From NCBI RefSeq assembly GCF_025558425.1, contig NZ_CP094718.1:1-64000 (forward strand): 64,000 nucleotides of DNA, in the 5' to 3' direction. This DNA comes from Staphylococcus sp. IVB6240 (GTDB taxonomy: Bacteria; Bacillota; Bacilli; Staphylococcales; Staphylococcaceae). The position numbers were made by a program, and so were the translations under genes. The notes under the pieces were generated by a model that was not told the origin of the DNA, did no database searches, and worked only from the letters and a program-made list of their open reading frames with translations. Shown piece by piece: positions 35,317-64,000 of the stretch; within the stretch, counting starts at the first letter, position 1, and the number at the start of each line of letters is the position of its first letter.

Positions 35317-35333
35317 AAGATAGGAGTTTTATT

Positions 35334-35879
35334 ATGATTAAAAAATTATTTTTTATGATATTAGGATCATTACTAATATTATCAGCTTGCTCCAATAATG
35401 ATGAAAAAGATAAAGACACTAATGACCAAAAAAGTGAGAGCCATATGAAACATAATGATGAAAGTAAAGTTCCAGAAGATATGAAATCGACTAATGAGGG
35501 TGAATTTAAAGTGGGAGATAAAGTAACGATTACAGCAGGGCATATGCCAGGTATGAAAGGTGCAGAAGCTACTGTAAAAGGTGCGTATAAAACATATGCC
35601 TATGTTGTAAGTTATAAACCCACAAATGGAAATGAAAAAGTAAACAATCATAAATGGGTCGTAAACGAAGAGATTAAAGATGCACCTAAAGATGGATTTA
35701 GTAAGGGCGATACTGTTAAATTAGAAGCAAGTCATATGTCTGGTATGAAAGGTGCTACAGCCAATATAGATAACGTGAAAAAGACTACTGTTTACGTAGT
35801 TGATTACAAATCCAAAGATAATGGTAAAATCATTAAAAATCATAAATGGATGACAGGAAATGAGCTGAAAGCACGATAA
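35334..35879 (+). CDS. copL: Copper-binding lipoprotein CopL (DUF1541 repeats)
   Basis: A 181-residue surface lipoprotein. The signal peptide ends in the lipobox LSAC with Cys19. Two tandem DUF1541 (YdhK) repeats follow (about 58-115 and 120-178), each carrying a GHMPGMKGA or SHMSGMKGA motif with His and Met that suits Cu(I) binding, then a YVVDYK-type strand and NHKW. It lies directly behind copB with its own TAGGAG site. In staphylococcal islands such a protein adds copper tolerance by binding the metal outside the membrane. Confidence 0.92.
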   Translation: MIKKLFFMILGSLLILSACSNNDEKDKDTNDQKSESHMKHNDESKVPEDMKSTNEGEFKVGDKVTITAGHMPGMKGAEATVKGAYKTYAYVVSYKPTNGNEKVNNHKWVVNEEIKDAPKDGFSKGDTVKLEASHMSGMKGATANIDNVKKTTVYVVDYKSKDNGKIIKNHKWMTGNELKAR

Positions 35880-36531: not shown

Positions 36532-37322
36532 GGTTCTGTTGCAAAGTTGAGTTTATAGTATAATTTTAACAAAAAGGAGTATGCTATATGAACTATTTCA
36601 GATATAAACAATTTAACAAGGACGTCATCACTGTAGCCGTTGGCTACTATCTAAGATACGCACTGAGTTATCGTGATATATCTGAAATTCTAAGAGAACG
36701 TGGTGTCAACGTTCATCATTCAACGGTCTACCGTTGGGTTCAAGAATATGCTCCGATTTTGTATCAAATTTGGAAGAAAAAACATAAAAAAGCCTATTAC
36801 AAATGGCGTATTGATGAGACGTACGTCAAAATAAAAGGGAAATGGAGCTATTTATATCGTGCTATTGATGCAGAGGGGCATACATTAGATATTTGGTTGC
36901 GTAAGCAACGTGATAATCATGCAGCATATGCGTTTATCAAACGTCTTATTAAACAATTTGGTAAACCTCAAAAAGTGATTACAGATCAGGTACCTTCAAC
37001 GAAGGTAGCCATGGCTAAAGTTATTAAAACGTTTAAACTGAATCCCGACTGTCATTGTACATCGAAATATCTGAATAATCTCATTGAGCAAGATCACCGT
37101 CATATTAAAGTAAGAAAGACAAGATATCAAAGTATGAATACGGCAAAGAATACTTTAAAAGGTATTGAATGTATTTACGCTCTATATAAAAAGAACCGCA
37201 GGTCTCTTCAGATCTACGGATTTTCGCCATGCCACGAAATTAGCATCATGCTAGCAAGTTAAACGAACACTGACATGACATATTAGTGGTTAGCTATATT
37301 TTTTTACTTTGCAACAGAACCA
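36532..37322 (+). mobile_element. IS431 (IS6/IS26 family), copy 1
   Basis: A 791-bp element with terminal inverted repeats GGTTCTGTTGCAAAGT and its complement ending at 37322. The flanking octamers do not match (no target duplication), so the flanks have been rearranged. The right end reads outward through TTGCAA, known as a -35 hexamer in IS431/IS257 hybrid promoters. Confidence 0.95.
36588..37262 (+). CDS. tnp: IS431 transposase, copy 1
   Basis: A 224-residue DDE transposase of the IS6 family. An N-terminal helix-turn-helix (DISEILRERGVNVHHSTVYRW) precedes the DDE core, with Asp in WRIDETYVKIKG, Asp in VITDQVPSTK and Glu in NLIEQDHRHIK. AAAAGGAG precedes the ATG. Almost identical to copy 2 at 40437-41111. 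Confidence 0.96.
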   Translation: MNYFRYKQFNKDVITVAVGYYLRYALSYRDISEILRERGVNVHHSTVYRWVQEYAPILYQIWKKKHKKAYYKWRIDETYVKIKGKWSYLYRAIDAEGHTLDIWLRKQRDNHAAYAFIKRLIKQFGKPQKVITDQVPSTKVAMAKVIKTFKLNPDCHCTSKYLNNLIEQDHRHIKVRKTRYQSMNTAKNTLKGIECIYALYKKNRRSLQIYGFSPCHEISIMLAS

Positions 37323-38223
37323 AAAAATAGACAATGTGAGTTACGCGGATATTCTGGAAATTTTAAAAATCAAAAAAGCGCATAATGTTAAACAATGCGG
37401 CAATGTCTTAGAATTCAAACCGACCGATGAAGGTTATTTGAAATTATATAAAACGTGGTTTTGTAAATCGAAGTTATGTCCGGTTTGTAATTGGAGGCGT
37501 GCGATGAAAAATAGTTATCACGCTCGAAAAGTGATTGAAGAGGTGATAAAAGAAAAACCGAAAGGGCGTTGGTTATTTTTAACACTTTCGACACGAAATG
37601 CGATAGATGGGGATACGTTAGATCAAAGTTTAAAACATTTAACAGAATCATTTAGAAGATTGTTTAAGTATAAAAAAATTAGTAAAAATTTAATTGGTTT
37701 TATTAGGTCAACAGAAGTGACAGTTAATAAAAATGACGGTAGTTATAATCAACATATGCATGTGTTGATGTGTGTCGAAAATAGTTATTTTAAGAATAAA
37801 GCTAATTATATAACTCAAGAAGAATGGATTGATTTGTGGCAAAAAGCATTACAAGTTGATTATCGTCCAGTTGCAAATATCAAAGCGATCAAACCGAATA
37901 AAAAGGGGGATAAAGATATTCAAGCAGCAATCAAAGAGACCTCAAAATATTCGGTTAAATCATCAGATTATTTAACTGATGATGATGAAAGAAATCAAGA
38001 AATTGTGAGAGATTTAGAATACGGCTTGTATCGAAAACGTATGTTGAGTTATGGTGGTTTGCTTAAACAAAAGCATAAAATTTTAAATTTAGATGACTCA
38101 GAGGACGGTAATTTAATTAATACAAGTGATGAAGAACAAACGACAGATGAAGAAGAAAAAGCACATTCAATTACGGCAATCTGGAATTTTGAAAAACAAA
38201 ATTATTTTTTGAAAAATTTGTAG
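37323..38223 (+). pseudogene. pUB110-type RepU replication initiator, 5' truncated
   Basis: A rolling-circle plasmid replication protein missing its N-terminus. The remaining frame (about 300 codons, running out of the IS431 end) begins NVSYADILEI and contains the zinc-like motif WFCKSKLCPVCNWRRAM, the HUH-type sequence NQHMHVLMCVE and the catalytic Tyr region TSKYSVKSSDYL. It resembles RepU of pUB110, which has about 45 further N-terminal residues. A hairpin terminator follows. An integrated plasmid fragment, presumably unable to replicate. Confidence 0.88.
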
Positions 38224-38250
38224 CGTTAGCTTAAAAGCTAGCGTTTTTTT
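38223..38250 (+). terminator. Terminator after the repU fragment
   Basis: GCGTTAGCTT paired with AAGCTAGCG (one G-U pair), then seven T. Confidence 0.85.
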
Positions 38251-38369
38251 ATGCTTTTTTACCTCCGTAGGAACTATAGTGTTCAACCGGCATGGTTGAC
38301 CAGTTTGTATGCTAATTTTTAAATTTGCATGTAACTGGGCAGTGTCTTAAAAAATCGACACTGGAATTG

Positions 38370-38570
38370 TTAAAAATTGATGTCTGGATTATCTGAAAAA
38401 TAAAAATCATAAATCTTAAGAAATTCAAAATCAGTATCTGATATGTTTTGTTCTTTCATGATTTTAATTACATTTTGAATTCGTTGGTCGTTAGGGATAT
38501 TACATAGTTCAGAAATTTCTTTTGATGTTTTATCAAATACGGAAAATGTAAATTCAAAGTTTATTGTCAT
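38370..38570 (-). CDS. Small plasmid-type hypothetical protein
   Basis: A 66-residue acidic protein from ATG 38570, preceded on its strand by AAGAGGTG. It reads MTINFEFTFSVFDKTSKEIS and ends FYFSDNPDINF. No family recognised and no membrane segment. Its last residues recur at 42908-42937 as FADNPDINF next to the IS30 element, showing that a second, mostly deleted copy of this plasmid region exists in the opposite orientation. Confidence 0.6.
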   Translation of the reverse strand: MTINFEFTFSVFDKTSKEISELCNIPNDQRIQNVIKIMKEQNISDTDFEFLKIYDFYFSDNPDINF

Positions 38571-38953
38571 AAAGAACACCTCTTATTTGGCTCATATTTG
38601 CGTTTTAAGAAACAAATATAATTATACAGGTGAAAACTATATATTTTTAAAGTTTGCTCTAAATACCCCCTTAAAATGCAAAATAAGGGTATTGGATTAT
38701 CACACGCAAATTTTGTTTTTAGCACGACACCTTTTCAGGTGTGTAAGTGCGCCCTTGGACAATGGAAAAATAAAACTCTTAATTAAACAGAGTTTAACTA
38801 AGATAGTCACGAGGAATTGAATAGCCTTTAATTCTGAGTTTCTTCAGATGTACCTGATTTATGGGGTGGTTTATGGTATGACGTTAAATTAACCCATGAA
38901 TCAACGTATAAACTAATACATAATGTAGGGGTAAAAAAGCACATAAAATAAGC
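38571..38953. other. Plasmid-derived non-coding stretch
   Basis: AT-rich DNA without a convincing gene. It contains one small hairpin ACACCT/AGGTGT (38727-38742) inside GCAC/GTGC, possibly part of a plasmid control RNA or origin. Nothing else recognised. Confidence 0.5.
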
Positions 38954-38979
38954 ACGCATTTATGCCGAGAAAATTTATT

Positions 38980-39090
38980 GATCAATGAGAAGAACCCTTA
39001 ACTAAACTTGTAGACGAATGTCGGCATAGCGTGAGCTATTAAGCCGACCATTCGACAAGTTTTGGGTTTGTTAAGGGTTCCGAGGCTCAT
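38980..39090. other. Rolling-circle plasmid single-strand origin (ssoA type)
   Basis: A long imperfect palindrome: AACCCTTAAC pairs with GTTAAGGGTT and CGAATGTCGGC with GCCGACCATTCG. The loop carries TAGCGT (39027-39032), the conserved CS-6 hexamer of ssoA origins. It directs lagging-strand priming in staphylococcal plasmids such as pC194 or pE194 relatives. Confidence 0.8.
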
Positions 39091-39124
39091 TGTCAATAAA
39101 GCAATTGGAATAAAGCAATAAAGA

Positions 39125-39334
39125 TTAACTTAATACTTTTACAATGAGGGTTGAGATGATTTTATAAGCTAAAAATAAAATACTTACTTTAACTATAAAT
39201 ATAATTGCAAATATTATTACTTCGCCGATACTTTGTATGTTAGTAAATGATGCAGTAGAAGTGCTAAACGTTGCAAACATTAAAGCTACAAATAAACTAA
39301 ACCAATAACTAGTTACTATTTCTGTTATTTTCAT
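39125..39334 (-). CDS. Small two-helix membrane protein, possible immunity peptide
   Basis: A 69-residue hydrophobic protein (MKITEIVTSYWFSLFVALMF...) with two predicted membrane helices (about 10-30 and 37-62). It lies on the same strand just downstream of the decayed secreted-peptide gene at 39360-39856. The pairing suggests an immunity or export role for that peptide, but no family was recognised and this is inference. Confidence 0.5.
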   Translation of the reverse strand: MKITEIVTSYWFSLFVALMFATFSTSTASFTNIQSIGEVIIFAIIFIVKVSILFLAYKIISTLIVKVLS

Positions 39335-39359
39335 AAAATCACCTTACTAGAGTTATTTT

Positions 39360-39856
39360 TTATAAATGACCATTAGTAGAGCAATAATCATCAAAAGCTG
39401 CCCATTTTCCTTTGTTAGACTGACAAGTTTTTTTAATTCCATAATTCATTATTTCATCAAGCAATTTAGTTGCTACTGCTCATCCTATTACACCGAGTAC
39501 TGCTGCTAATGCTGGGGCTATACGTGTAGATGTACCTTCATTATTATTTGAATCTAGATCGGGTTTGAACCCTATTTTTTGGTTAAATTTCTCTATTTGG
39601 TCTTTATTCATACTTTCGAAATATGTTTTAAGATTTTCTGCTTGTTTTTGTGTCAATCCATTATTTGTAGCGTATTCTGTATTGAAAACATATTTTTTAT
39701 TTTGAATATCGTATTTTAGAGACTTTTGTATTGTATTGATTTCTTTTTCACTGATTGAACTACTTTCTGCTTGGGTTGGATTATTGAATATACCGAAAAA
39801 AGTAATAATAAGACTTAAAGTTAATAAAAAACTTTTGTTAAATATAATTTTTTCAT
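39360..39856 (-). pseudogene. Decayed secreted (bacteriocin-like) peptide precursor
   Basis: Read leftward from the ATG near 39856 (GGAGG upstream), the gene would encode a signal peptide (SFLLTLSLIITFFGIF, ending near NPTQAES), a charged middle region of about 80 residues and a hydrophobic C-terminal domain RIAPALAAVLGVIG...AVATKLLDEI, ending KGKWAAFDDYCSTNGHL. Two lesions are visible: one A missing from the A-run after the start codon (frameshift), and an in-frame TGA at 39480-39482 in the VIG-stop-AVATK segment where Trp would fit. Lantibiotic-unrelated; class II-like precursor is a guess. Confidence 0.6.
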
Positions 39857-39944
39857 CATGATATCCTCCTTTATTAAATTTTACCCCAAGTAAAATTGAT
39901 AAAACTTTATTAGAGGTTTTGAAACGAGTTGAAAACGAGTTTCT

Positions 39945-40015
39945 TCTTGTCTTGATACTATATAGAAATAACGTTCTTTTTAAGAATGTGCGTTTAACGT
40001 TGATATATCAACGTT
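39945..40015 (+). other. Double-strand origin of a pC194-type plasmid
   Basis: TCTTGATA (39950-39957) in the context CTTCTTGTCTTGATACTA matches the nick region of pC194/pUB110-family origins. It is followed by the perfect 20-bp palindrome AACGTTGATATATCAACGTT (39996-40015). It lies just before the pC194-type rep fragment, as in the free plasmid. Confidence 0.75.
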
Positions 40016-40059
40016 TTTGTTGATTTTCTAGGTGGAAAACAAAATTTGACGATTATAAC

Positions 40060-40380
40060 ATGGAAAAGTATACTGAGAAAAAACAAAGAAATCAAGTATT
40101 TCAAAAATTTATTAAACGTCATATTGGAGAGAATCAAATGGATTTAGTTGAAGATTGCAATACATTTCTGTCTTTTGTAGCTGATAAAACTTTAGAAAAA
40201 CAGAAATTATATAAAGCTAATTCTTGTAAAAATCGATTTTGTCCTGTCTGTGCTTGGAGAAAAGCTAGAAAAGATGCGTTGGGTTTATCTTTGATGATGA
40301 AATATATTAAGCAGCAAGAGAAAAAGGAGTTTATCTTTTTAACTTTGACTACACCTAATGTAATGAGTGATGAATTAGAA
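40060..40380 (+). pseudogene. pC194-type Rep, N-terminal half
   Basis: 107 codons of a pC194-type rolling-circle Rep ([18 protein letters not shown]...), including the motif NRFCPVCAWRKARKDAL and the FIFLTLTTPNVMSDELE segment. The frame runs into the left end of IS431 copy 2 at 40381. The C-terminal half of the same protein type lies inverted at 43215-43723. About 32 residues that join the two halves in pC194 Rep are missing. Confidence 0.88.
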
Positions 40381-41165
40381 GGTTCTGTTGCAAAGTTGAG
40401 TTTATAGTATAATTTTAACAAAAAGGAGTATGCTATATGAACTATTTCAGATATAAACAATTTAACAAGGACGTCATCACTGTAGCCGTTGGCTACTATC
40501 TAAGATACGCACTGAGTTATCGTGATATATCTGAAATTCTAAGAGAACGTGGTGTCAACGTTCATCATTCAACGGTCTACCGTTGGGTTCAAGAATATGC
40601 TCCGATTTTGTATCAAATTTGGAAGAAAAAACATAAAAAAGCCTATTACAAATGGCGTATTGATGAGACGTACGTCAAAATAAAAGGGAAATGGAGCTAT
40701 TTATATCGTGCTATTGATGCAGAGGGGCATACATTAGATATTTGGTTGCGTAAGCAACGTGATAATCATGCAGCATATGCGTTTATCAAACGTCTCATTA
40801 AACAATTTGGTAAACCTCAAAAAGTGATTACAGATCAGGTACCTTCAACGAAGGTAGCCATGGCTAAAGTTATTAAAACGTTTAAACTGAATCCCGACTG
40901 TTATTGTACATCGAAATATCTGAATAATCTCATTGAGCAAGATCACCGTCATATTAAAGTAAGAAAGACAAGATATCAAAGTATGAATACGGCAAAGAAT
41001 ACTTTAAAAGGTATTGAATGTATTTACGCTCTATATAAAAAGAACCGCAGGTCTCTTCAGATCTACGGATTTTCGCCATGCCACGAAATTAGCATCATGC
41101 TAGCAAGTTAAACGAACACTGACATATTAGTGGTTAGCTATATTTTTTTACTTTGCAACAGAACC
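40381..41165 (+). mobile_element. IS431 (IS6/IS26 family), copy 2
   Basis: A 785-bp IS431 with intact terminal repeats, shorter than copy 1 by a small deletion near its right end (one GACAT unit missing). Inserted in the pC194-type rep gene. Direct orientation relative to copy 1, inverted relative to copy 3. No target duplication. Confidence 0.95.
40437..41111 (+). CDS. tnp: IS431 transposase, copy 2
   Basis: A 224-residue IS6-family DDE transposase, differing from copy 1 by one visible residue (NPDCYCTS instead of NPDCHCTS). All catalytic residues are present. Same start and ribosome binding site context as copy 1. Confidence 0.96.
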   Translation: MNYFRYKQFNKDVITVAVGYYLRYALSYRDISEILRERGVNVHHSTVYRWVQEYAPILYQIWKKKHKKAYYKWRIDETYVKIKGKWSYLYRAIDAEGHTLDIWLRKQRDNHAAYAFIKRLIKQFGKPQKVITDQVPSTKVAMAKVIKTFKLNPDCYCTSKYLNNLIEQDHRHIKVRKTRYQSMNTAKNTLKGIECIYALYKKNRRSLQIYGFSPCHEISIMLAS

Positions 41166-41263
41166 GCTTTTTTTCACTTAAATTCAAGATAAGAAAAAAC
41201 CATGAAAAATAGACCTGCAAAACAATAACTATTGTGATAAAGTTTGCTAAAAAGGAGTTTTGA

Positions 41264-41410
41264 AGTTGAAAAAAAACAGAACGTAATTTATTTTCTATTT
41301 TCTTATCTTTAGGAAGTCTTTTTGCAACCTTTAGTGGTTTCTTTATTTTGGGCATTGGAATGTTAATTGGTGGAGCAACTTTATTAACTAAAAGTATTTC
41401 TGAAGAATAA
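41264..41410 (+). pseudogene. Small membrane peptide gene with frameshift
   Basis: AAAAGGAG precedes TTG and an eight-A run. With seven A the frame would read KKTERNLFSIFLSLGSLF, then ATFSGFFILGIGMLIGG and end TLLTKSISEE, a 48-residue two-helix membrane peptide. As it stands the start is out of frame with the body. Probably plasmid-derived. Function unknown. Confidence 0.45.
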
Positions 41411-41573
41411 AAGAGTTGACGCATTTATGCCGAGAAAATTTTTGGTGGGAAAAGCGAAACGGAAACATACTAAAAAGCCGAATGGCTGGATACCGTTAGG
41501 TATCAATTTTGCCATTTGACAGCTTTTTTATTTTTTGTTTCGCTGTTGGTTCACACCAAAAGGAAATTGGAAG

Positions 41574-42898
41574 GTGGATTTTATAATCAACTTAGCCACC
41601 TTTAGACAAAAAAACGCCAGGTGAATTTCATGTTATTATTGAGGCTACCAGACCAAATCAATAAAGGAATGAATTCACATGACGCATACTTATTCTAACA
41701 TGACAAACCATAAAGGAACACACTTAAGTTATGAAGAACGTGTTCAAATAGAAACACTTAAAAATTTAGGTTTTTCAAATCGTGCAATAGCGCGTGAATT
41801 AGGACGTGCACCTCAAACAATCAATAACGAAATTCATCGAGGAACAACACGTCAAATTAAACGACAAAAACAACAACATAAAGTCTATGAATATGAGACG
41901 CAAATTTATTTTTCTTCACTAGGTCAACAACGTTATCGACAAAACAGACAACAATGTGGTGCTCAGCCCTTATGGAAGAAGAACCCATTATTTATGCCAT
42001 GGGCAGATCACCTCATGAAAAAGAAACGCTGGTCACCTGAAGCAGTCGTGGCATATGCTCACAAGGAACAATGTTTTGAAAGAGAAGAAATCCCTTCAAC
42101 AACGACAGTATATGCTTGGATAGATCAACAAATCATGGAAACTAAGAATATTGATCTACTAGAAAAATTAAAAAGACGTCACTCTACTCAGAATAGCTAC
42201 CATAATCATCCACACAGTCGAGTGCTCGGTCCAAGTATTGAGACACGTCCTAGTGAAATTGAATCACGTCAGTCTTTTGGTCACTGGGAAATAGATACCG
42301 TAATAGGAACTAAAGACAAGTCAAAGCCAGTTATCTTAACACTTGTTGAGAGACAAACGCGTTTTGAAATACTAGAAATAATAGAAAGTAAAAGTGCTGA
42401 TGCGGTGTCTCACGCATTGAAAAACTTATTTGACTCCTTAGGCGAAAAAGCACCAAAAATCTTTAAATCTATCACATCTGACAATGGTTCAGAATTTGCA
42501 TTGCTGTATGAAGAATTTGGCCATATGATAGAAATATACTTCACACATCCATTCTCATCATATGAACGTGGGACAAGTGAAAACCAACATAAAATGATTC
42601 GTCGTTTTATTCCAAAAGTACATGATTTATCCAATGTTCAAAAACGCTTCATAAAAGCCATACAACAATATATGAATGACTATCCTAGAAAGACTTTAAA
42701 TTACAACACAGCTCATCATCAAATGACAGAATGTTTAAAGCACCTCAATCTGTATGGATCTTTCCAAAGCTAAAGTCTTAGCTTTGGTTACCTGTTGAGT
42801 ATTAATTGATTAAAACCAATCAATCCTCAACAGGTTCGAATACGGTTAACCCTTGTGTACACCTCAGTCATTATAGGTGGCTAACTTAAACTTGAAAT
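41574..42898 (+). mobile_element. IS30-family insertion sequence, intact copy
   Basis: The element spans from GGTGGATTTTATAATCAACTTAGCC on the left to GGTGGCTAACTTAAACTTGAAAT on the right. The imperfect terminal repeats align around the shared AACTTAGCCACC / AAGTTAGCCACC core. It contains one transposase gene and a post-gene hairpin (CCTGTTGAG...CTCAACAGG, about 42790-42834). A second copy starts at 63456 and a deleted relic lies at 47945-48136. Exact ends are uncertain by a few bases. Confidence 0.85.
41679..42773 (+). CDS. IS30-family transposase
   Basis: 364 residues. The N-terminal helix-turn-helix reads SYEERVQIETLKNLGFSNRAIA followed by RELGRAPQTINNEI. The integrase core has Asp in HWEIDTVIG, Asp in TSDNGSEF, and Glu in GTSENQHKMIRRF with the (E)NxxKNxxIRxF-like signature of the IS30 family. 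Length and catalytic triad are complete, so it may be active. Confidence 0.93.
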   Translation: MTHTYSNMTNHKGTHLSYEERVQIETLKNLGFSNRAIARELGRAPQTINNEIHRGTTRQIKRQKQQHKVYEYETQIYFSSLGQQRYRQNRQQCGAQPLWKKNPLFMPWADHLMKKKRWSPEAVVAYAHKEQCFEREEIPSTTTVYAWIDQQIMETKNIDLLEKLKRRHSTQNSYHNHPHSRVLGPSIETRPSEIESRQSFGHWEIDTVIGTKDKSKPVILTLVERQTRFEILEIIESKSADAVSHALKNLFDSLGEKAPKIFKSITSDNGSEFALLYEEFGHMIEIYFTHPFSSYERGTSENQHKMIRRFIPKVHDLSNVQKRFIKAIQQYMNDYPRKTLNYNTAHHQMTECLKHLNLYGSFQS

Positions 42899-43149
42899 TC
42901 TCGTTTATTTTGCAGATAATCCAGATATCAATTTTTAAAAAATCCAGTGTCGATTTTTTAAAACACTGCCCAGTTACATGCAAATTAAAATTTTCATGAT
43001 TTTTTATAGTTCCTAACAGGGTTAAAATTTGTATAACAAAAGTATAATGTTTATATAACGTTAGTATAATAAAACATTTTAACATTATACTTTTGATAAT
43101 CGTTTATCGCCGTCATCACAATAACTTTTAAAATACTCGTGCATAATTC
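42899..43149. repeat. Plasmid segment duplicated in inverted orientation
   Basis: Bases about 42905-43015 are the reverse-complement relative of 38275-38405: shared GATAATCCAGA / TCTGGATTATC, TCCAGTGTCGATTTTTTAA and CACTGCCCAGTTACATGCAAATT. It includes the last codons FADNPDINF of the 38370-38570 protein. The rest to 43149 is AT-rich without a gene. Confidence 0.75.
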
Positions 43150-43199
43150 AACAGCTGACCTCCCAATAACTACATGATGTTATCGGGAGGTCAGCTGTT
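43150..43199 (-). terminator. Terminator of the pC194-type rep gene
   Basis: A perfect 15-bp stem AACAGCTGACCTCCC (43150-43164) with its complement (43185-43199), and a second helix ATAAC/GTTAT inside. Confidence 0.88.
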
Positions 43200-43214
43200 A
43201 ACACTTATATTTTG

Positions 43215-43723
43215 TTATTGTTCTTCCTCGATTTCGTCTATCATTTTATGATTAATTTCTCTTTTTTCTTGTTCTGTTAAATCATAAAGTTCACTAGCCA
43301 AATACTCTTTTTGTTTCCAAATATAAAAAATTTGATAGATATATTCGGTTGGATCAATTTCTTTTAAATAATCTAAATCCCCATTTTTTAATTTCTTTTT
43401 AGCCTCTTTAAATAATCCTGAATAAACTAAAACCTGTTTACCTTTAAGTGATTTATAGAATGCATCAAATACTTTTTGATTTATTAAATAATCACTATCT
43501 TTACCAGAATACTTAGCCATTTCATATAACTCTTTATTGTTATTTTGTCTTATTTTTTGAACTTGAACTTGTGTGATTTCTGAAATGCCCGTTACATCAC
43601 GCCATAAATCTAACCATTCTTGTTGGCTAATATAATATCTTTTATCTGTGAAATACGATTTATTTACTGCAATTAACACATGAAAATGAGGATTATAATC
43701 ATCTCTTTTTTTATTATATGTAA
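43215..43723 (-). pseudogene. pC194-type Rep, C-terminal half
   Basis: About 169 codons read leftward from the IS431 copy 3 boundary, beginning LTYNKKRDDYNPHFHVLIAV. This includes the HUH-like PHFHVLIAV motif and the catalytic tyrosine region YEMAKYSGKDSDYLI, and ends in IDEIEEEQ like pC194 Rep. It is the missing C-terminus of the fragment at 40060-40380, now on the opposite strand. The native rep terminator follows it. Confidence 0.88.
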
Positions 43724-44513
43724 GGTTCTGTTGCAAAGTAAAAAAATATAGCTAACCACTAATATGTCATGTCAGTGTTCGTTTAACTTGCTAGCATGAT
43801 GCTAATTTCGTGGCATGGCGAAAATCCGCAGATCTGAAGAGACCTGCGGTTCTTTTTATATAGAGCGTAAATATATTGAATACCTTTTAAAGTATTCTTT
43901 GCCGTATTGATACTTTGATATCTTGTCTTTCTTACTTTAATATGACGGTGATCTTGCTCAATGAGATTATTCAGATATTTCGATGTACAATGACAGTCGG
44001 GATTCAGTTTAAACGTTTTAATAACTTTAGTCATGGCTACCTTCGTTGAAGGTGCCTGATCTGTAATCACTTTTTGAGGTTTACCAAATTGTTTAATGAG
44101 ACGTTTGATAAACGCATATGCTGCATGATTATCACGTTGCTTACGCAACCAAATATCTAATGTATGTCCCTCTGCATCAATGGCACGATATAAATAGTTC
44201 CATTTTCCTTTTATTTTGATGTACGTCTCATCAATACGCCATTTGTAATAAGCTTTTTTATGCTTTTTCTTCCAAATTTGATATAAAATCGGGGCATATT
44301 CTTGAACCCAACGGTAGACCGTTGAATGATGAACATTTACACCACGTTCCCTTAATATTTCAGATATATCACGATAACTCAATGCATATCTTAGATAGTA
44401 GCCAACGGCTAAAGTGATGACGTCCTTGTTAAATTGTTTATATCTGAAATAGTTCATACAGAAGACTCCTTTTTGTTAAAATTATACTATAAATTCAACT
44501 TTGCAACAGAACC
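43724..44513 (-). mobile_element. IS431 (IS6/IS26 family), copy 3
   Basis: A 790-bp IS431 in inverted orientation to copies 1 and 2, with both 16-bp terminal repeats intact. It is more divergent (for example THGA-type substitutions in the leader and ITDQAPSTK in the transposase). No target duplication: TATATGTAA on the left, TGTCAGAA on the right. Confidence 0.95.
43783..44457 (-). CDS. tnp: IS431 transposase, copy 3
   Basis: A 224-residue IS6-family DDE transposase with all three catalytic residues. It differs from copies 1 and 2 at several positions (TLAVG, TYIKIKGKWNY, TDQAPSTKVAMTK, YQSINTAKN), so it was acquired separately. Confidence 0.95.
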   Translation of the reverse strand: MNYFRYKQFNKDVITLAVGYYLRYALSYRDISEILRERGVNVHHSTVYRWVQEYAPILYQIWKKKHKKAYYKWRIDETYIKIKGKWNYLYRAIDAEGHTLDIWLRKQRDNHAAYAFIKRLIKQFGKPQKVITDQAPSTKVAMTKVIKTFKLNPDCHCTSKYLNNLIEQDHRHIKVRKTRYQSINTAKNTLKGIQYIYALYKKNRRSLQICGFSPCHEISIMLAS

Positions 44514-51351: not shown

Positions 51352-51666
51352 GTGTCTTATAAAGAACTCTCAACAATATTAAAAGTGTTATCAGATCCAA
51401 GTATATTGGAAATATTAGACTTGCTTTCTTGTGGTGAATTATGTGCTTGTGATTTGTTGGAGCACTTTCAATTCTCACAACCAACACTCAGTCATCATAT
51501 GAAGTTATTAGTAGATAACGAATTAGTTTATACACGTAAAGATGGTAACAAACATATGTACCAACTTAATCATGTTATTTTAGATGATATCAATCAAAAT
51601 ATAAACATTATTGACACATCTAACCAACGTTGTGTATGTAAAAATATAAAATCAGGTGAATGTTGA
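51352..51666 (+). CDS. arsR: Arsenic-responsive repressor ArsR
   Basis: A SmtB/ArsR-family winged-helix repressor, 104 residues, from GTG 51352 behind AGGAGGT. The arsenite-binding site is the ELCACDL motif (two Cys in one helix) within [16 protein letters not shown], followed by the recognition helix [11 protein letters not shown]. Release by As(III) or Sb(III) derepresses the operon. A further Cys pair lies near the C-terminus ([11 protein letters not shown]). It overlaps the arsB start. Confidence 0.95.
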
Positions 51667-52957
51667 TGATGATGACTTTAGGAATTGTAATTTTTCTTTT
51701 AACTTTAATCTTTGTGATATGGCAACCTAAAGGTTTAGATATTGGTATTACAGCTTTAATTGGGGCGGTCATCTCTATTATTACAGGCGTTGTTAGCTTT
51801 TCTGATGTACTAGAGGTAACAAGTATCGTTTGGAATGCCACTTTAACATTTGTAGCTGTTATTCTTATTTCATTAATATTAGACGAGATTGGATTTTTTG
51901 AATGGTCTGCAATACATATGGTCAAAGCTTCAAACGGTAACGTCTTAAAAATGTTTGTATATATTATGCTATTAGGATCAATAGTAGCTGCATTTTTCGC
52001 AAATGATGGTGCAGCTTTAATCTTAACGCCAATTGTATTAGCGATGGTAAGAAATTTGGGTTTCAGTAAAAAAACGTTATTCCCTTTTATTATTGCATGT
52101 GGATTTATTGCTGATACTACATCACTTCCATTAATTGTGAGGAATTTAGTAAATGTCGTTTCTGCTGATTACTTCAATATTGGATTTATTGAGTACCTTA
52201 GTCGAATGATTATTCCAAATATATTCTCTCTGATCGCTAGCATATTTGTATTATGGCTTTATTTCAGAACGTCTATACCAAAAACTTTCGATAAAAGAAT
52301 CTTATGAACCCAAATGATGCAATTAAAGACTTAAAATTATTTAAGATTTCTTGGCTAGTATTAGCAATATTACTTGTAGGCTATCTTGTTAGTGAGTTTA
52401 TTCAAATCCCTGTATCGATCATTGCTTGTACGATTGCACTTATCTTTGTGATCTTAGCTCGTAATTCTCCTTCAGTTCATACTAAACAAGTGATTAAAGG
52501 TGCACCATGGAATATTGTTCTATTTTCTATAGGTATGTACTTAGTTGTATTTGGATTAAAAAACGTTGGCATCACATCAATTTTAGCTGAAGTATTATCT
52601 AATATTTCAAGTCATGGATTATTCAGTAGTGTTATGGGCATGGGCTTTATATCAGCATTTTTATCATCCATTATGAATAATATGCCTACTGTCTTAATCG
52701 ATGCTATAGCGATTGGACAATCTAATGTAGTAGGAACCATTAAAGAAGGTATGGTTTATGCCAATATAATAGGTTCTGATTTAGGACCGAAAATCACACC
52801 GATTGGGTCTTTAGCAACATTATTGTGGCTACATGTGTTAACACAAAAAGGTGTAAAGATTTCGTGGAGAATATATTTTAAAACTGGAATCATTATTACT
52901 ATTCCGGTACTATTTGTCACACTCTTAGGTTTATATCTCACACTAATTATATTTTAA
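51660..52957 (+). pseudogene. arsB: Arsenite efflux permease ArsB, split by frameshift
   Basis: A 12-helix arsenite exporter closely like plasmid pI258 ArsB (about 429 residues), here in two frames. The first half (51660-52307, 215 codons; likely start among ATGs 51666-51672) ends KTFDKRIL. The second (52304-52957, 217 codons) begins MNPNDAIKD, where the intact protein runs through. One A appears missing near 52292-52299. The break lies in the central cytoplasmic loop, and the stop and next ATG overlap as ATGA, so coupled translation of two half-permeases is possible. Otherwise inactive. Confidence 0.85.
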
Positions 52958-57809: not shown

Positions 57810-57864
57810 TTGTGTAAATTGATAGAGTATAGTATTATTTAAAACGTAATAATTACGATTTAAA
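57810..57864 (+). promoter_or_regulatory. Zur-box-bearing promoter of the importer operon
   Basis: TTGTGT (57810-57815), a 17-base spacer and TATTAT (57833-57838). Overlapping the -10 and start is a 27-bp palindrome TTTAAAACGTAAT-A-ATTACGATTTAAA (57838-57864) with a single mismatch between the arms. It fits the Zur consensus AAATCGTAATNATTACGATTT at all but one position. Confidence 0.8.
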
Positions 57865-57881
57865 GTAAGGAGAAAAATGAA

Positions 57882-58574
57882 ATGACTGATAGTTATGACG
57901 TTTGGTGGCAAAAAGGTCAAGAATCAGATGATGATATGGCACGAGACCATCAAGAAGCTTGGGAGAGAACGATAGAAATGCTTGATAGATCTGACATCGA
58001 AGGGAAAACGATTTTAGATGTGGGATGTAATCAAGGCGGATTTTTACGACAATTATACGATACAACACCGTTTAAAGAAGGTGTTGGCATCGATTTAGCA
58101 CGTTTATCTTTGGAAAAAGCAGAGACATTAAAAGGACAACGTCCACTTACATACTATTTAACAGATAAACCACAAGAAACGAAGCACATATTTGATACGG
58201 CTGTAAGTACGTCTGTCTTGTACTTAATAGAGGATATTCCGCAACATGCGAAAGATTTAAAAGAGGTATTGAAACCAGGTGGCGTTTATTACGCTTCATT
58301 CGCGGATTTAACTAATAACTCGAGTCGTCAGTTTATGGATGACACGATTAATCAATATGGTGCCACACCGTCTCAGAATCATTCTCTAAAACATATCGTT
58401 GATAGCTTTGTGGATGCAGGATTTGAAGTTGCAGTAATGAAAGAGCCTGTACCTGACGTGATTGATTTAACACATTATAGCGATTTTTATTTATCACCGA
58501 ATGATTATTTACAAACATTATATGAAGAATCATTTTTAATCAAAGCAAGAGTGAAAGAAGGTACTGAGAAATGA
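57882..58574 (+). CDS. SAM-dependent methyltransferase of the importer operon
   Basis: A class I methyltransferase of 230 residues. Motif I TILDVGCNQGGF is at 43-54, an acidic end of strand 2 is GVGIDLARLSLEKA, and the LKPGGVYYAS segment follows. AAGGAG precedes the ATG. It is the first gene behind the Zur box and overlaps the substrate-binding protein gene by four bases (ATGA), so it is tightly coupled to transport. The methyl acceptor is unknown. A role in modifying a metallophore or its precursor is inference; ACME opp3 clusters have a similar extra first gene. Confidence 0.85.
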   Translation: MTDSYDVWWQKGQESDDDMARDHQEAWERTIEMLDRSDIEGKTILDVGCNQGGFLRQLYDTTPFKEGVGIDLARLSLEKAETLKGQRPLTYYLTDKPQETKHIFDTAVSTSVLYLIEDIPQHAKDLKEVLKPGGVYYASFADLTNNSSRQFMDDTINQYGATPSQNHSLKHIVDSFVDAGFEVAVMKEPVPDVIDLTHYSDFYLSPNDYLQTLYEESFLIKARVKEGTEK

Positions 58575-60124
58575 AGAAACGTATATTAATGACGGTAGCA
58601 GCAAGTGTTACGCTCTTATTAGCAGGTTGTGGCAATGGTCAAAAAGAAGATAAAGATGTTACGGTATCGCTACCTACTGAAGCAAAGGCGGATAAACTTG
58701 ACGCGCAAGGCTATGATGCAGCGATGCCCGTTTATAGTGCAGTGTATGATGCATTAGTTAAATACGACAAAGATAAGGGCTTTAAAGCAGGTTTAGCAGA
58801 TAAATGGCGCGTTGATGAATCAGGAAAAGTTTATGAATTCCATTTGAAAAAGAACGTTAAATTCTCAGATGGTTCAGCATTAGATGCTAAGGCCGTGAAA
58901 TTTTCGATTGATCGTGCGAAAGCGATGAATAAAGATACGACTGTAGAAACGTTAAAAAAATTAGATAAGGTCGTTGTTAAAAATGATCACGTGGTCCAAA
59001 TTAGATTGAAATCTCCATCAAATCAAGTGTTAAATGAATTAACACAAGTGAGACCGTTGCGTATTATGAGTCCACATTCAGTAGAAGATGGTAAAGTAAA
59101 CGGTAAATTTGAAAAAGCGATTGGAACAGGTGCATTTGTTGTTGATAAAACTGGGAAAGAAAAAACGACAATGAAGCCAAATAAATATTTCGACAACGGT
59201 CACCCAGTCAATTATCATCTTGCATTCCAAACGATTGAAGATGGGGACTCAAGAAATTCTGCAGTACAAAGTGGTTCTGTAGATATTTCTGGTGGTGCTT
59301 TAGGAATGCTCTCAGATGAACAAATCAAACAAGATAAGAAAAATAAGAACTTAACGATTGAAGATAGACCTAGCACAGTAAGTCACTTTATGGCATTTAA
59401 CCCTAAAAATGATGTATTAAATCATCGCGCAATTCGTGAAGCGATAAGTAAGAGCATCGATGCGAAAGATATTGCGGGTAAATCTATAAATGGTCTGTTC
59501 CAGAAGAACGTACAATTTGTGACTAAAGATAATCAACAGCCACACGATTATGATATGAAAGCGGCTGAAAGTTTACTTAAATCAGAAGGCTATCATAAAA
59601 ACGATGACGGCATCTTTGAAAAGAATGGCAAACCTTTATCATTTAACTTAGTCATTCAAACTGCAGAGTTCCCAAGTTGGAAAGATAAAGCAGAAAAAGT
59701 GCAACGCCAGCTTAAACAAGCCGGTATTAAGTTAAATGTGAAGACGTTAGATTCACAATCATACTATGATACATTATGGACGAAAAAAGACTATGATTTG
59801 ATTTTCTATAGAACGTATTCAGATGCATTAATGCCTTACAACTTTATGAGTTCAGTGTTTAAAAATAATGATGGTCAACCAGGGGTGTTAGCTGATGATG
59901 AAACATTAACGAAACAGCTAGACGATTTCCCATCAACTGTATCAAAAGAAGACCAACAGCGTTCGTTTGATGACATATTTAAACACTTTAATCAACAATA
60001 TTATGGTGTGCCAATTGCTTATCCTAATGAGACATTTGTAGTGAGTGATAAAGTAAAACAATTCAAATTCTCTGGACTTACGGATGCACCAATTGATTAT
60101 AAAGCGTTGAAAGTTAATGAATAA
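58571..60124 (+). CDS. opp3A: Nickel/peptide-type ABC substrate-binding lipoprotein
   Basis: A family-5 solute-binding lipoprotein of 517 residues. Lipobox LLAGC with Cys20, then a bilobal binding domain with the family segments YEFHLKKNVKFSDGSALDAKAVKFSIDRA and SHFMAFNPKNDVLNHRAIREAISKSID. The layout resembles NikA/CntA and Opp proteins. ACME opp3 offers the closest context I recognise. Zur control points to a metal-metallophore cargo rather than peptides, which remains an inference. Symbol tentative. Confidence 0.85.
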   Translation: MKKRILMTVAASVTLLLAGCGNGQKEDKDVTVSLPTEAKADKLDAQGYDAAMPVYSAVYDALVKYDKDKGFKAGLADKWRVDESGKVYEFHLKKNVKFSDGSALDAKAVKFSIDRAKAMNKDTTVETLKKLDKVVVKNDHVVQIRLKSPSNQVLNELTQVRPLRIMSPHSVEDGKVNGKFEKAIGTGAFVVDKTGKEKTTMKPNKYFDNGHPVNYHLAFQTIEDGDSRNSAVQSGSVDISGGALGMLSDEQIKQDKKNKNLTIEDRPSTVSHFMAFNPKNDVLNHRAIREAISKSIDAKDIAGKSINGLFQKNVQFVTKDNQQPHDYDMKAAESLLKSEGYHKNDDGIFEKNGKPLSFNLVIQTAEFPSWKDKAEKVQRQLKQAGIKLNVKTLDSQSYYDTLWTKKDYDLIFYRTYSDALMPYNFMSSVFKNNDGQPGVLADDETLTKQLDDFPSTVSKEDQQRSFDDIFKHFNQQYYGVPIAYPNETFVVSDKVKQFKFSGLTDAPIDYKALKVNE

Positions 60125-60126
60125 CA

Positions 60127-61083
60127 ATGCTCAAACGTACAATTAAATTCATACTTTATTTAACCGTAAGTTCGTTTATTATCTTCATTTTAGTTGAGAA
60201 GACATCTGGTAATCCAGCGATTCTGTATCTACAACGTCATGGTTATACGTCGATTACGCAAGACAATATTGAAGCGGCACAACATAAACTTGGCTTAGGA
60301 CAACATGTGTTACTAAGATATATCGATTGGGTTGGACATGCACTTACGGGCAACTTAGGATACAGCTTTAGTACCAACGAAGCGGTTACCGCTATGATAA
60401 TGGAAGCTATCATGCCAACGCTTGTGCTAATCATTGTCTCTAGTTGTATCATGTTGCCATTTGGCTATATTGTTGGTTACTTCGTTGGGACGCGTCCGCA
60501 TACACGTTACGCTAATGGAATTCGTGGATTCGCCCAAGTGATGACCTCAATGCCGGAATACTGGTTAGCTATTTTATTCATTTATTATTTAGGAGTACGT
60601 TGGCAATTGTTACCATTTGTAGGTAGTGGTTCATGGCAACACTTTGTGCTGCCAATCTTCACAATTGTTGTTATAGAAGGGTGTCATATCTTATTGATGA
60701 CAGCACATTTGATGGCGCAAACGTTAGATCAAGATGCGTATCAACTTGCGCAGTTAAGACATTTCTCGTTAAAAGCGCGTATCATCGTACAAATTAAAGA
60801 GATATTTGCACCACTAATGACCATTTCAATTAACAGTGTCATTCATTTAATTGGAAAAGCCGTAATACTTGAAGTCATCTTCAGCATGTCTGGAATAGGT
60901 AAATTGTTGATTAATGCTATTAACCAACGAGATTATCCACTAATTCAGGGCATTGTCATCTTTATCATCGTCTTTATTATGCTAATGAATTATTTAGGCG
61001 ATGTGATTATCTTGAAGAATGAACCTAGACTTCGACGACGTCATACCCAGCAGTCAGGCAATGAGAAAAGAGGTGCGATGTGA
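60127..61083 (+). CDS. opp3B: ABC importer permease (NikB/OppB type)
   Basis: A 318-residue inner-membrane permease with about six helices. The N-terminal OppB-like segment is followed by ALTGNLGYSFSTNEAVTAMI, and the cytoplasmic EAA-like loop (AYQLAQLRHFSLKARIIVQ) contacts the ATPases. It starts two bases after the binding-protein stop. The C-terminus overlaps the next permease gene by a base. It should pair with the NikC-type permease downstream. Confidence 0.88.
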   Translation: MLKRTIKFILYLTVSSFIIFILVEKTSGNPAILYLQRHGYTSITQDNIEAAQHKLGLGQHVLLRYIDWVGHALTGNLGYSFSTNEAVTAMIMEAIMPTLVLIIVSSCIMLPFGYIVGYFVGTRPHTRYANGIRGFAQVMTSMPEYWLAILFIYYLGVRWQLLPFVGSGSWQHFVLPIFTIVVIEGCHILLMTAHLMAQTLDQDAYQLAQLRHFSLKARIIVQIKEIFAPLMTISINSVIHLIGKAVILEVIFSMSGIGKLLINAINQRDYPLIQGIVIFIIVFIMLMNYLGDVIILKNEPRLRRRHTQQSGNEKRGAM

Positions 61084-61850
61084 TGAAAAAATATCAAACG
61101 TACATCGCAATAGGTTCACTATTAAGTTTGATAGTTGTATTAGTGACGTATGGTTTAATGCAAGACACGCAACATTTGAACCCACTTGAGTCACCTAATG
61201 GACAACATTGGTTGGGTACCGATCAATTAGGCAGAGACTTCTTAGTAAGACTGATTGTCGGTAGTCTTGTCACATTGAGTTTAACAGGTATAGTGATTCT
61301 ATTAAGTGTTTGTATGGGACTTATCTTTGGCTTAATTGCAGGCATAGAAAGACGATGGTTAGATCAAATCATTATGTTTGTTGCCGATATGTTGTTGGCT
61401 ATTCCGTCATTTATTATCGCATTAGTCATTTTAAGTTTAGTAAGTAACTCCATGATAGGTTTGATACTTGCTTTAACGATTGGATGGATAGGACGTTATT
61501 TACGTTACTTCAGAAATTTAACGCGAGATATTCAAAAACGTCCATTTGTTCAATATGCACGATTGAGTGGGAACTCAACATTCAAAACGACAGTAACACA
61601 TGTGATTCCACATTTATTGAGTAATATATCCGCTTTGGTAACGGCTGACTTTGGCAAAATGATGCTCAGCATATCTGGTCTTGCCTTTCTAGGACTAGGT
61701 ATTAAACCGCCGACGCCTGAGTTAGGAACAATTCTTTTTGATGGGAAAAGTTATTTCAACGGCGCACCGTGGCTCTTCTTCTTTCCTGGTGTATTGTTAG
61801 GAGGTTTCGCCTTATTATGTCAAATCATCAACAAAAAAATAACGCAGTAA
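61083..61850 (+). CDS. opp3C: ABC importer permease (NikC/OppC type)
   Basis: A 255-residue permease from ATG 61083, just after the preceding stop TGA, with AGAGGTG upstream. The OppC-like ESPNGQHWLGTDQLGRDFLVRL segment lies near residue 37, and the EAA-type loop is FVQYARLSGNSTFKTTVTHVIPH. About five helices. Its 3' end overlaps the first ATPase gene by 34 bases. Confidence 0.88.
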   Translation: MKKYQTYIAIGSLLSLIVVLVTYGLMQDTQHLNPLESPNGQHWLGTDQLGRDFLVRLIVGSLVTLSLTGIVILLSVCMGLIFGLIAGIERRWLDQIIMFVADMLLAIPSFIIALVILSLVSNSMIGLILALTIGWIGRYLRYFRNLTRDIQKRPFVQYARLSGNSTFKTTVTHVIPHLLSNISALVTADFGKMMLSISGLAFLGLGIKPPTPELGTILFDGKSYFNGAPWLFFFPGVLLGGFALLCQIINKKITQ

Positions 61851-62584
61851 ATACGGTAGTCAACGTCAATCAATTATCGATTTTAGATCAAAAAAAAGTA
61901 TTGTTAAAAGATGTTGATTTGACAGTAACTAAAGGTGCATTTCATTGCATTATAGGTGAAAGTGGCAGTGGGAAATCATTGTTAACAAGAACGATACTTG
62001 GAATGAAACGACCACAATTATGTTATCAAGGAGATATTGACATCGATTTAACTAAAACAGATGCAGTGTTTCAAGATGTTCAAAGTAATATGTTTCAAAA
62101 TATAACATTAGCTAAGCATTTCCAATACATTTATGAAGCCAATCGGACACATCTGACTAAACAGTGTATTAAGGAGGACGTCTTACAGATGATGCAATTA
62201 CTTGGTTTAAGGCAAGGAGAACATTTACTTGAGCGTTATCCCTTTGAACTTAGTGGAGGTATGGCACAACGTGTCGCCTTTATAATGTCATTAATTAGAC
62301 GTCCGGACTACTTATTTTTAGATGAACCGACGAGTGCACTTGATCAAGGAAATGTTAAAAAGTTTATGCATTACCTTCTTAAGGCACAAGAACGCTACCA
62401 AATGACCATCGTTTTTATCACACACGATATTAACTTAGTGAAAGAATTTGCCACGCATATTAGCATTATGCAGCAAGGTCAATTGATAGAAAGTGGTGAG
62501 GCAGCGTCAATCTTAACTAAGCCGACATATAGTTACACGAAAAAATTAATTACGATTGCACATCGGAGACAACCTTATGCTTAA
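61817..62584 (+). CDS. opp3D: ABC importer ATP-binding protein (NikD/OppD type)
   Basis: A 255-residue ATPase from ATG 61817 inside the preceding gene. Walker A GESGSGKS at 47-54, signature ELSGGMAQR, Walker B YLFLDEPTSAL and switch His in VFITHDI. All motifs for ATP hydrolysis are intact. The zinc/iron-sulfur C-terminal extension of peptide OppD is absent, typical of NikD-like proteins. Confidence 0.9.
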   Translation: MSNHQQKNNAVNTVVNVNQLSILDQKKVLLKDVDLTVTKGAFHCIIGESGSGKSLLTRTILGMKRPQLCYQGDIDIDLTKTDAVFQDVQSNMFQNITLAKHFQYIYEANRTHLTKQCIKEDVLQMMQLLGLRQGEHLLERYPFELSGGMAQRVAFIMSLIRRPDYLFLDEPTSALDQGNVKKFMHYLLKAQERYQMTIVFITHDINLVKEFATHISIMQQGQLIESGEAASILTKPTYSYTKKLITIAHRRQPYA

Positions 62585-63212
62585 AATAGAGAGTCTAACC
62601 AAATATATAGATACGAAACTAATATTTAAAGAGATATCATGTACAATTAATGACCAACACTTACTCATAAGTGGTGAGAGTGGTTGTGGTAAATCTACGT
62701 TAGCCAAGATTATCGCTGGCTTAGATACGGATTATCAGGGCAAATTATATCTTAATGGGAACTTACGTGAATCTTATACATCTAAAGAGTGGATGAAGCA
62801 CATCCAATATGTACCACAATATCAACGCGATACCTTAAATCAACGTAAAACGGTATTAGCTACACTATTAGAACCACTTAAGAATTACAAGATTGATAAA
62901 CAGCGTTATACATCAAGCATTGAAACAGTACTTGATCAGTGTAACTTACCATACAATATACTTAATCAAAAAGTTTCAACGTTAAGTGGTGGTCAATTTC
63001 AACGGGTATGGATAGCTAAAGCTTTAATATTAGAACCAGAAATCCTCATATTGGATGAAGCAACAACCAATTTAGATATCATTAATGAAGAAGATATACT
63101 TCAAATGTTGATTTCCTTAAAGATGACACAATTAATCATTATTTCACATGATACATACGTCTTAAGCCAATTTGAAGGAATTCAGTTACAGCTAAATAAA
63201 TTGAATAATTAA
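62577..63212 (+). CDS. opp3E: ABC importer ATP-binding protein (NikE/OppF type)
   Basis: The second ATPase, 211 residues from ATG 62577 (CGGAGA six bases before it), overlapping the previous gene by eight bases. Walker A GESGCGKS at 33-40, signature TLSGGQFQRV, Walker B ILILDEATTNLD and IISHD. Last gene of the six-gene operon. The overlap of every junction supports one transcript. Confidence 0.9.
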   Translation: MLKIESLTKYIDTKLIFKEISCTINDQHLLISGESGCGKSTLAKIIAGLDTDYQGKLYLNGNLRESYTSKEWMKHIQYVPQYQRDTLNQRKTVLATLLEPLKNYKIDKQRYTSSIETVLDQCNLPYNILNQKVSTLSGGQFQRVWIAKALILEPEILILDEATTNLDIINEEDILQMLISLKMTQLIIISHDTYVLSQFEGIQLQLNKLNN

Positions 63213-63455: not shown

Positions 63456-64000
63456 ATTTCAAGTTTAAGTTAGCCACCTATAATGACTGAGGTGTACACA
63501 AGGGTTAACCGTATTCGAACCTGTTGAGGATTGATTGGTTTTAATCAATTAATACTCAACAGGTAACCAAAGCTAAGATTTTAGCTTTGGAAAGATTCAT
63601 ACAGATTGAGGTGCTTTAAACTTTCTGCCATATTATGATGAGCTGTGTTGTAATTTAAAGTCTTTCTAGGATAGTCATTCATATATTGTTGTATGGCTTT
63701 TATGAAGTGTTTTTGAACATTGGATAAATCATGTGCTTTTGGAATAAAACGACGAATCATTTTATGTTGGTTTTCACTTGTCCCACGTTCATATGATGAG
63801 AATGGATGTGTGAAGTATATTTCTATCATATGGCCAAATTCTTCATACAGCGATGCAAATTCTGAACCATTGTCAGATGTGATAGATTTGAAGATTTTTG
63901 GTGCTTTTTCGGCTAAGGAGTCAAATAAGTTTTTCAATGCGTGAGACACCGCATCAGCACTTTTACTCTCTATTATTTCTAGTATTTCAAAACGCGTTTG
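63456..64000 (-). mobile_element. IS30-family insertion sequence, second copy (cut by window end)
   Basis: The right end ATTTCAAGTTTAAGTTAGCCACC is at 63456, and the same hairpin and transposase 3' end as in the 41574-42898 copy follow, in the opposite orientation. The left half lies outside the window. Confidence 0.88.
63581..64000 (-). CDS. IS30-family transposase, partial
   Basis: The C-terminal 140 codons of the IS30 transposase, running off the right edge. Second catalytic Asp in TSDNGSEF and Glu in GTSENQHKMIRRF are present. Compared with the other copy it has small changes (DSLAEKAPK, ALLYEEF to ASLYEEF, QMTECLKHL to NMAESLKHL), so the two copies are not recent duplicates. Confidence 0.9.
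   Translation of the reverse strand, partial: QTRFEILEIIESKSADAVSHALKNLFDSLAEKAPKIFKSITSDNGSEFASLYEEFGHMIEIYFTHPFSSYERGTSENQHKMIRRFIPKAHDLSNVQKHFIKAIQQYMNDYPRKTLNYNTAHHNMAESLKHLNLYESFQS

Follow-up and report, generated by a model that had tools for sequence, protein, structure and literature searches.

The opp3 cluster of the arginine catabolic mobile element (ACME) is named after an oligopeptide permease, and the question raised by this locus is what its transporter imports. The operon under study, which is the ACME opp3 cluster (opp-ACME), lies on the + strand at 57810..63212 of a 64,000-nt stretch of DNA from Staphylococcus sp. IVB6240 (the window, to which plain coordinates refer), and it joins a methyltransferase gene to the genes of a five-component ATP-binding cassette (ABC) transporter. 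We consider it probable (about 0.6) that opp-ACME is a zinc-starvation-induced metal-chelate importer of Cnt/Nik build with a dedicated methyltransferase, rather than an oligopeptide permease. The earlier note on this DNA had proposed that Zur controls the operon and that the cargo is a metal chelate, not a peptide, and the comparative sequence evidence now argues strongly for both. The operon and its control region are composed of the following elements:

57810-57838, + strand: putative promoter (TTGTGT at 57810-57815, 17 nt, TATTAT at 57833-57838)
57838-57864, no strand assigned: 27-nt palindrome with Zur-like operator (core at 57841-57861)
57882-58574, + strand: class I S-adenosylmethionine (SAM)-dependent methyltransferase, 230 aa, motif I GCNQGG, above the cut-offs of Pfam PF13489/PF08242
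58571-60124, + strand: substrate-binding protein (SBP), a lipoprotein of the SBP_bac_5 family (Pfam PF00496), 517 aa, opp3A of ACME
59478-60660, + strand: predicted amplicon of the ACME opp3AB primers, 1,183 bp
60127-61083, + strand: permease opp3B, closest NCBIfam family Opp2B nickel permease
61080-61850, + strand: permease opp3C, closest NCBIfam family Opp2C nickel permease
61817-62584, + strand: ATPase, closest to CntD/CntF/NikD
62577-63212, + strand: ATPase, closest to NikE

This is the architecture of the Opp/Nik class, with an SBP_bac_5 lipoprotein, two BPD_transp_1 permeases and two ABC ATPases, all above their Pfam cut-offs. The six genes had been described as overlapping; their number and their order (methyltransferase, SBP, permeases, ATPases) stand, and four junctions do overlap, but the SBP gene and the first permease gene are separated by a 2-nt gap. 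Neither an exporter nor a further synthase gene was found among the open reading frames (ORFs) of the operon, as judged from the ORF list and Pfam.

Zur control of the operon can be predicted with high confidence. The palindrome, reported previously as a 27-bp element with one arm mismatch that covers the promoter and matches the Zur consensus, was confirmed: its 13-nt arms (57838-57850 and 57852-57864) are 92% complementary around a 1-nt spacer, and its core, AAAACGTAATAATTACGATTT, agrees at all but one of 20 fixed positions with AAATCGTAATNATTACGATTT, which we take to be the Gram-positive Zur box consensus. The palindrome directly follows a plausible −10 element, TATTAT. We infer the promoter from this position and from similar hexamers in the upstream regions of the other staphylococcal orthologues, aligned on the box; the list produced by a sigma-70 scanner did not include the TTGTGT/TATTAT pair. 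A box with no more than two mismatches occurred in none of 3000 resampled upstream regions of 300 nt.

The box is conserved together with the operon. Among 84 Staphylococcus genomes searched, 31 contained a match to the methyltransferase, 16 of them an orthologue (66–100% identity) and 15 only distant matches (≤35% identity). In all 16 orthologous loci the methyltransferase frame is full length, the SBP gene adjoins it directly, and the box (0–2 mismatches) ends 19–24 nt before the methyltransferase start. The palindrome, whose absence from other opp3 clusters with preserved transport genes would have counted as a refutation according to the earlier note, is present throughout the staphylococcal orthologues, as well as in the ACME copy of S. 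epidermidis. In the S. lugdunensis methyltransferase gene, what had looked like an internal stop turned out to be the regular stop codon at position 228 and not damage. The SBP gene is interrupted in one carrier, G013, by an in-frame stop at codon 137 (L091 9585-11138), possibly a natural loss of the operon.

Comparison with Zur-type sites elsewhere in the host genome gave a consistent picture. The exact core CGTAATNATTACG is found at three places in the 2.195-Mb genome and nowhere in a backward-read control: at the operon, between the genes for ribosomal proteins S14 and L33 (the L33 gene was assigned by eye), and before the gene for a CobW-type GTPase. When up to three mismatches were allowed, 11 genome sites were found compared with four in the control, and given this ratio weak sites were not counted as regulon members; sites with three mismatches were not used, except for one beside L33. 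The better sites include the promoters of a flavin adenine dinucleotide (FAD)-dependent oxidoreductase and of a ZnuA-ZinT lipoprotein. The assumed consensus is credible because close matches to it precede S14, CobW and ZnuA-type genes of the host genome. A probable zur gene of the Fur family, assigned by its position, overlaps the end of an adcCB-like gene pair in the same genome. The oxidoreductase, which has weak similarity to lysine/ornithine monooxygenases, is a candidate Zur target, with a Zur-like box just upstream (G000:C1:2017862-2017882, L030; one mismatch). A site at G000:1500071 (two mismatches) lies inside an ORF and was taken as a chance match.

The genes that surround the operon also belong to zinc metabolism in many carriers. 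Fourteen of the 16 neighbourhoods (all except the window's own and that of G028) were read over 12.7–21.6 kb each; L085 represents a second mobile copy. A ZnuA-type importer (AdcA/AdcB-like, ZnuA, ABC-3) lies within ∼6 kb of the operon in eight of the 14, and in six of these eight there is also a CobW GTPase gene with its own box just upstream. The genes cntK, cntL and cntM, with an upstream box, are present in one neighbourhood (S. caprae), and in five neither a ZnuA-type importer nor CobW or cntKLM was found. Between the boxed CobW gene and the methyltransferase operon, a gene for a branched-chain amino acid carrier (∼453 aa) was observed in L004, L005, L089, L090, L092 and L093. Three paralogous operons, whose SBPs are 53% identical to that of opp-ACME, have no methyltransferase among their listed ORFs and no box (the best match in 300 nt upstream has 7–8 mismatches). 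One of them directly follows a urease operon and another lies ∼8 kb from urease accessory genes (L082, L084; urease genes assigned by eye); for the third, no urease was found within the 19 kb read. SBP residues such as H272, W403, D418 and S428 are common to the staphylococcal orthologues and to all 16 more distant relatives and are changed in the paralogues. A search for cntL gave no match in the window's genome; among the remaining 15 staphylococcal carriers, 12 were likewise without one. The lower frequency of cntL among carriers (3/16) than among non-carriers (28/68) is not significant (p = 0.15; two of 33 matches were dropped, one weak with E = 8.2e-4 and one fragmented).

The methyltransferase has a SAM-binding Rossmann fold with motif I, as indicated by Pfam and by fold matches of its predicted model (pLDDT, predicted local distance difference test, 94.6). 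Residues D46, G48, G52, G53 and D71 are invariant. Its motif I is unusual, GCN(Q)GG, with Q in at least 90% of 57 relatives, and M19, H23 and W27 are invariant within an N-terminal stretch common to all 57 aligned proteins. The fold matches do not point to a single substrate; neither CntL nor nicotianamine synthase is among the best 50 listed, which does not argue against such an activity, and the xenorhabdin methyltransferase XrdM is found at rank 15 of 1354 (E ≤ 0.001) among many small-molecule methyltransferases. Aminocarboxypropyl transfer may be an alternative to methyl transfer onto a metallophore.

Outside the staphylococci, where genus labels were inferred from the names of near-identical or similar proteins, the gene was found in 10 of 398 genomes drawn from the class and two of 398 from the phylum (the window's own genome included), and it is therefore rare; its breadth beyond Bacilli is judged from protein matches without gene context. 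Two Brevibacillus-type genomes contain it with an SBP, permeases and ATPases and with a box (2–3 mismatches) 215–236 nt upstream of the listed methyltransferase start. Among 197 Paenibacillaceae-type genomes drawn, eight carry the gene. In four of these (G178, G516, G529 and G537) the gene immediately before it encodes an EamA exporter, and both belong to an opine-zincophore cluster comprising cntL, cntM, SBP, permease and ATPase genes, and the encoded proteins are 40–44% identical to the window's methyltransferase. Gene order varies among the four clusters: in G529 and G537 the ATPase genes precede cntL, and G178 has a second SBP/permease/ATPase set after the methyltransferase gene. Of the remaining carriers, G619 has only the EamA-methyltransferase pair, G523 and G493 have other neighbours, and G540 has a methyltransferase-SBP-permease-ATPases arrangement with Zur-like boxes (2–4 mismatches) and no cntL match. 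The G540 SBP groups with the CntA clade in a tree, with a long branch and an unsure placement. At the other seven Paenibacillaceae-type loci, no box with four or fewer mismatches was found. Many methyltransferase loci are associated with the traffic of metallophores or metals; some of them include synthesis genes, whereas in most staphylococci only import is represented.

That the operon imports a metal-chelate is very likely from the family and fold comparisons of its proteins. By NCBIfam score the best family of the SBP is nickel_nikA, and the nickel and CntA families score well above Opp4A and OppA. The SBP scores are below the cut-offs for the NikA/Opp5A nickel families (TIGR02294, 229.1/393; NF045468, 185/600) and far below that for the CntA family (187.1/800 bits); the permeases score far below the cut-offs for chromosomal Opp3B and Opp3C (103.5/480 and 94.6/450). 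The structural comparison that had been suggested for the SBP placed its predicted model closest to NikA and CntA and further from OppA. An oligopeptide permease, for which the opp3 name speaks, is scarcely credible in view of these family scores and folds and of the Zur box at the promoter, and in the available excerpt of PMC6495380 no peptide defect is told for the opp-ACME mutant (papers are cited here by PubMed Central number and, unless a main text is named, for the excerpts available). Peptide transport was rejected as the leading explanation on the grounds of family scores, fold and this mutant literature. A Zur-controlled nickel/cobalt importer, whose promoter would open on zinc starvation but whose cargo would be Ni or Co carried by a ligand such as histidine, in line with the original proposal for Opp1/Cnt, is closer to the observed family assignments, namely nickel_nikA for the SBP and nickel Opp2B/Opp2C for the permeases, and two of the closest paralogues (53%) are near urease genes. 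It is nevertheless quite unlikely, as the neighbours are specific for zinc (the ZnuA-type importer in 8/14, the CobW GTPase in 6/14), the three paralogues read have neither methyltransferase nor box, and the SBP residues named above, which orthologues and distant relatives share, are altered in the paralogues.

For the methyltransferase, the sequence evidence somewhat favours action on the chelator. The earlier note had called it a tailoring enzyme, and this can be upheld in part. If the enzyme made or finished the carrier's own metallophore, by tailoring or by one-enzyme synthesis, and the product were exported and then re-imported through the operon, its place directly after the EamA exporter gene in the opine-zincophore clusters of 4/8 Paenibacillaceae-type carriers would be explained; a tailoring role has also been suggested for methyltransferases of some zincophore clusters (PMC7438024). 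In staphylococci, however, such a route is unlikely, since the operon is without an exporter or other synthase and 13 of the 16 carriers, including the window's genome, are without a cntL match. This count makes biosynthetic tailoring by the carrier doubtful, fits better with an imported chelator and suggests the use of foreign metallophores. A further possibility is that the enzyme S-methylates zinc-chelating dithiol antibiotics as a means of protection, its adjacency to the importer reflecting co-regulation only. XrdM is among the fold matches, and a Zur-controlled promoter would be expected to respond to zinc chelation as such. This explanation is very improbable, because XrdM ranks only 15th, amid many small-molecule methyltransferases, the methyltransferase and SBP genes are adjacent in 16/16 staphylococcal carriers, and the enzyme is found in opine clusters elsewhere.

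In the preferred explanation, a zinc-starvation-induced metal-chelate importer, Zur would occupy the palindrome, immediately after the −10 element, and block transcription when zinc is replete. When zinc is scarce, the promoter would open and the six genes would be made. The lipoprotein would then capture a metal-chelator complex, most likely zinc with an opine-type or similar zincophore, the permease/ATPase set would import it, and the methyltransferase would modify the chelator in the cytoplasm after import. In non-producers such as the window's genome, the enzyme would act on the imported chelator and perhaps free the metal or disarm the free chelator; in Paenibacillaceae-type producers, it may act on a home-made one. 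Action on an imported chelator in non-producers is a tentative proposal, favoured rather than proven by the presence of cntL in only 3/16 carriers. Still more speculative, and rather unlikely as a whole, is the idea of opp-ACME as a mobile zincophore-piracy kit, with which carriers that do not produce staphylopine would import metal-loaded opines of neighbours and methylate them inside, the metal being freed and the chelator, whose accumulation is reported to harm S. aureus, disarmed. The kit would have originated in a Zur zinc cluster on the chromosome of a donor resembling S. borealis and moved from there to ACME.

The identification of the operon as ACME opp3 is based on the opp3AB amplicon and on linkage to arc genes in S. 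epidermidis. The forward opp3AB primer matches at 59478-59500 with two mismatches, and the predicted product has the printed size. The reverse primer, in the form that we presume to be correct, matches exactly at 60640-60660. The version printed in the primer table of PMC7402503 differs in the last base. In S. epidermidis 1FSE05, arcA, arcD and arcC adjoin a copy with 96.2% identity across 3,172 nt; its box has one mismatch, and the copy ends short of an IS257. The S. epidermidis ACME record (NZ_CP121525.1, L117; 386 kb) is labelled as a plasmid, also holds gyrA and serS, and could be a chromosomal fragment. An S. aureus label is carried by a cluster of 416 proteins with 96% identity to the methyltransferase. 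In S. borealis, the operon, with DNA 97.1% identical across 5,409 nt, adjoins a zinc importer and a CobW gene, which suggests, at the level of sequence, an S. borealis-like donor of ACME opp3. The SCC-type (staphylococcal cassette chromosome) island described earlier was recovered: rlmH (by eye) ends near 32.7 kb, a large serine recombinase is encoded ∼30 kb downstream of the operon, and att-like repeats lie at 32721, 36086, 71866 and 87932 (2–3 mismatches, without a chance estimate), the 18-mer used for them being presumably the appropriate one. No tblastn match to arcA, arcD or argF was found in the window and the next 40 kb, which is not the content of ACME type I, and the island is therefore closer to type III as defined in PMC7402503.

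Several other features were observed on the island. Directly after rlmH, a copper-type P-ATPase gene and a lipoprotein gene (33253-35879, by eye) resemble published ACME-joined copper modules. Transposases belonging to two or more families (by eye) are present in several copies between rlmH and the region beyond the operon (36588-44457 and 63581-64000). An arsB-like transporter gene (51660-52957, by eye) is split into two overlapping ORFs of 215 and 217 aa; a longer copy, 431 aa, is present in L080. From L080 13423 to L081 3463 extends a very long ORF whose product resembles a surface protein and has a YSIRK-type signal and repeats rich in aspartate (by eye).

ACME is characteristic of the USA300 lineage (PMC7029739), and opp3, labelled as a peptide transporter, is used as a marker for typing the element (PMC7402503). 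A metal role for ACME Opp has already been proposed in print: PMC12510641 places it nearer to Opp1/2 and considers metal ions more likely. A peptide growth defect was reported for a chromosomal opp3 mutant in a study that included an opp-ACME transposon mutant (PMC6495380); in a medium replete with zinc, a Zur promoter would stay shut. Both adcA and cnt are under Zur control, and staphylopine-dependent uptake of zinc has been shown (PMC5666155). Methyltransferases of unclear role occur in some zincophore clusters (PMC7438024), and two titles in the reference list of that paper name harm from accumulated staphylopine. Staphylococcal metallophore systems have been mapped and cheating described (PMC12709192), in a main text in which ACME, methyltransferase and Zur each have 0 occurrences. 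In S. capitis, ACME is found in clade A and cntKLM is enriched in clade B (PMC10370188), which is suggestive only. Among the matches listed from the open-licence PMC literature, as far as the excerpts extend, no report links ACME opp to Zur, a Zur box or the methyltransferase. What is new here is the genus-wide conservation, the contrast with the paralogues and the link of the methyltransferase to opine zincophore clusters. If opp-ACME is a zinc-starvation importer of metal chelators, part of the fitness credited to ACME would have to do with host and neighbours that withhold zinc. The conservation of the methyltransferase would indicate a step of zincophore use that has so far gone unrecognised, and its pairing with an importer in genomes without a cntL match would make the idea of staphylococcal 'metallophore cheating' directly testable.

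When opp-ACME is compared with known systems, it shares with CntABCDF (Opp1 of S. aureus) the SBP/permease/permease/ATPase/ATPase composition, a Zur-type box and the logic of zinc starvation, and cntK is located ∼3.5 kb from the operon in S. caprae. However, the two SBPs are 26% identical over the structural alignment, the ACME operon contains a methyltransferase gene, and in the window's genome neither a cntL match nor a CntA above the cut-off was found, so that staphylopine synthesis, tested through cntL, is not indicated. NikABCDE and Opp5A-Opp2 provide the closest SBP and permease families, the closest fold (NikA) and a 53% paralogue that adjoins urease genes, but the scores are below the cut-offs, and the Zur box and methyltransferase are missing from the three paralogues. 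With the chromosomal Opp3 oligopeptide permease, opp-ACME has in common the ABC architecture and the name, whereas the family is different. The opine zincophore clusters (PMC7438024) are alike in having a homologous methyltransferase after the EamA exporter gene and similar ABC importers; the staphylococcal operon, in contrast, is composed of importer and methyltransferase without genes for synthesis or export. Compared with ACME itself, the window's island is without arc genes (over the window and the next 40 kb), but its opp3 cluster is identical in kind.

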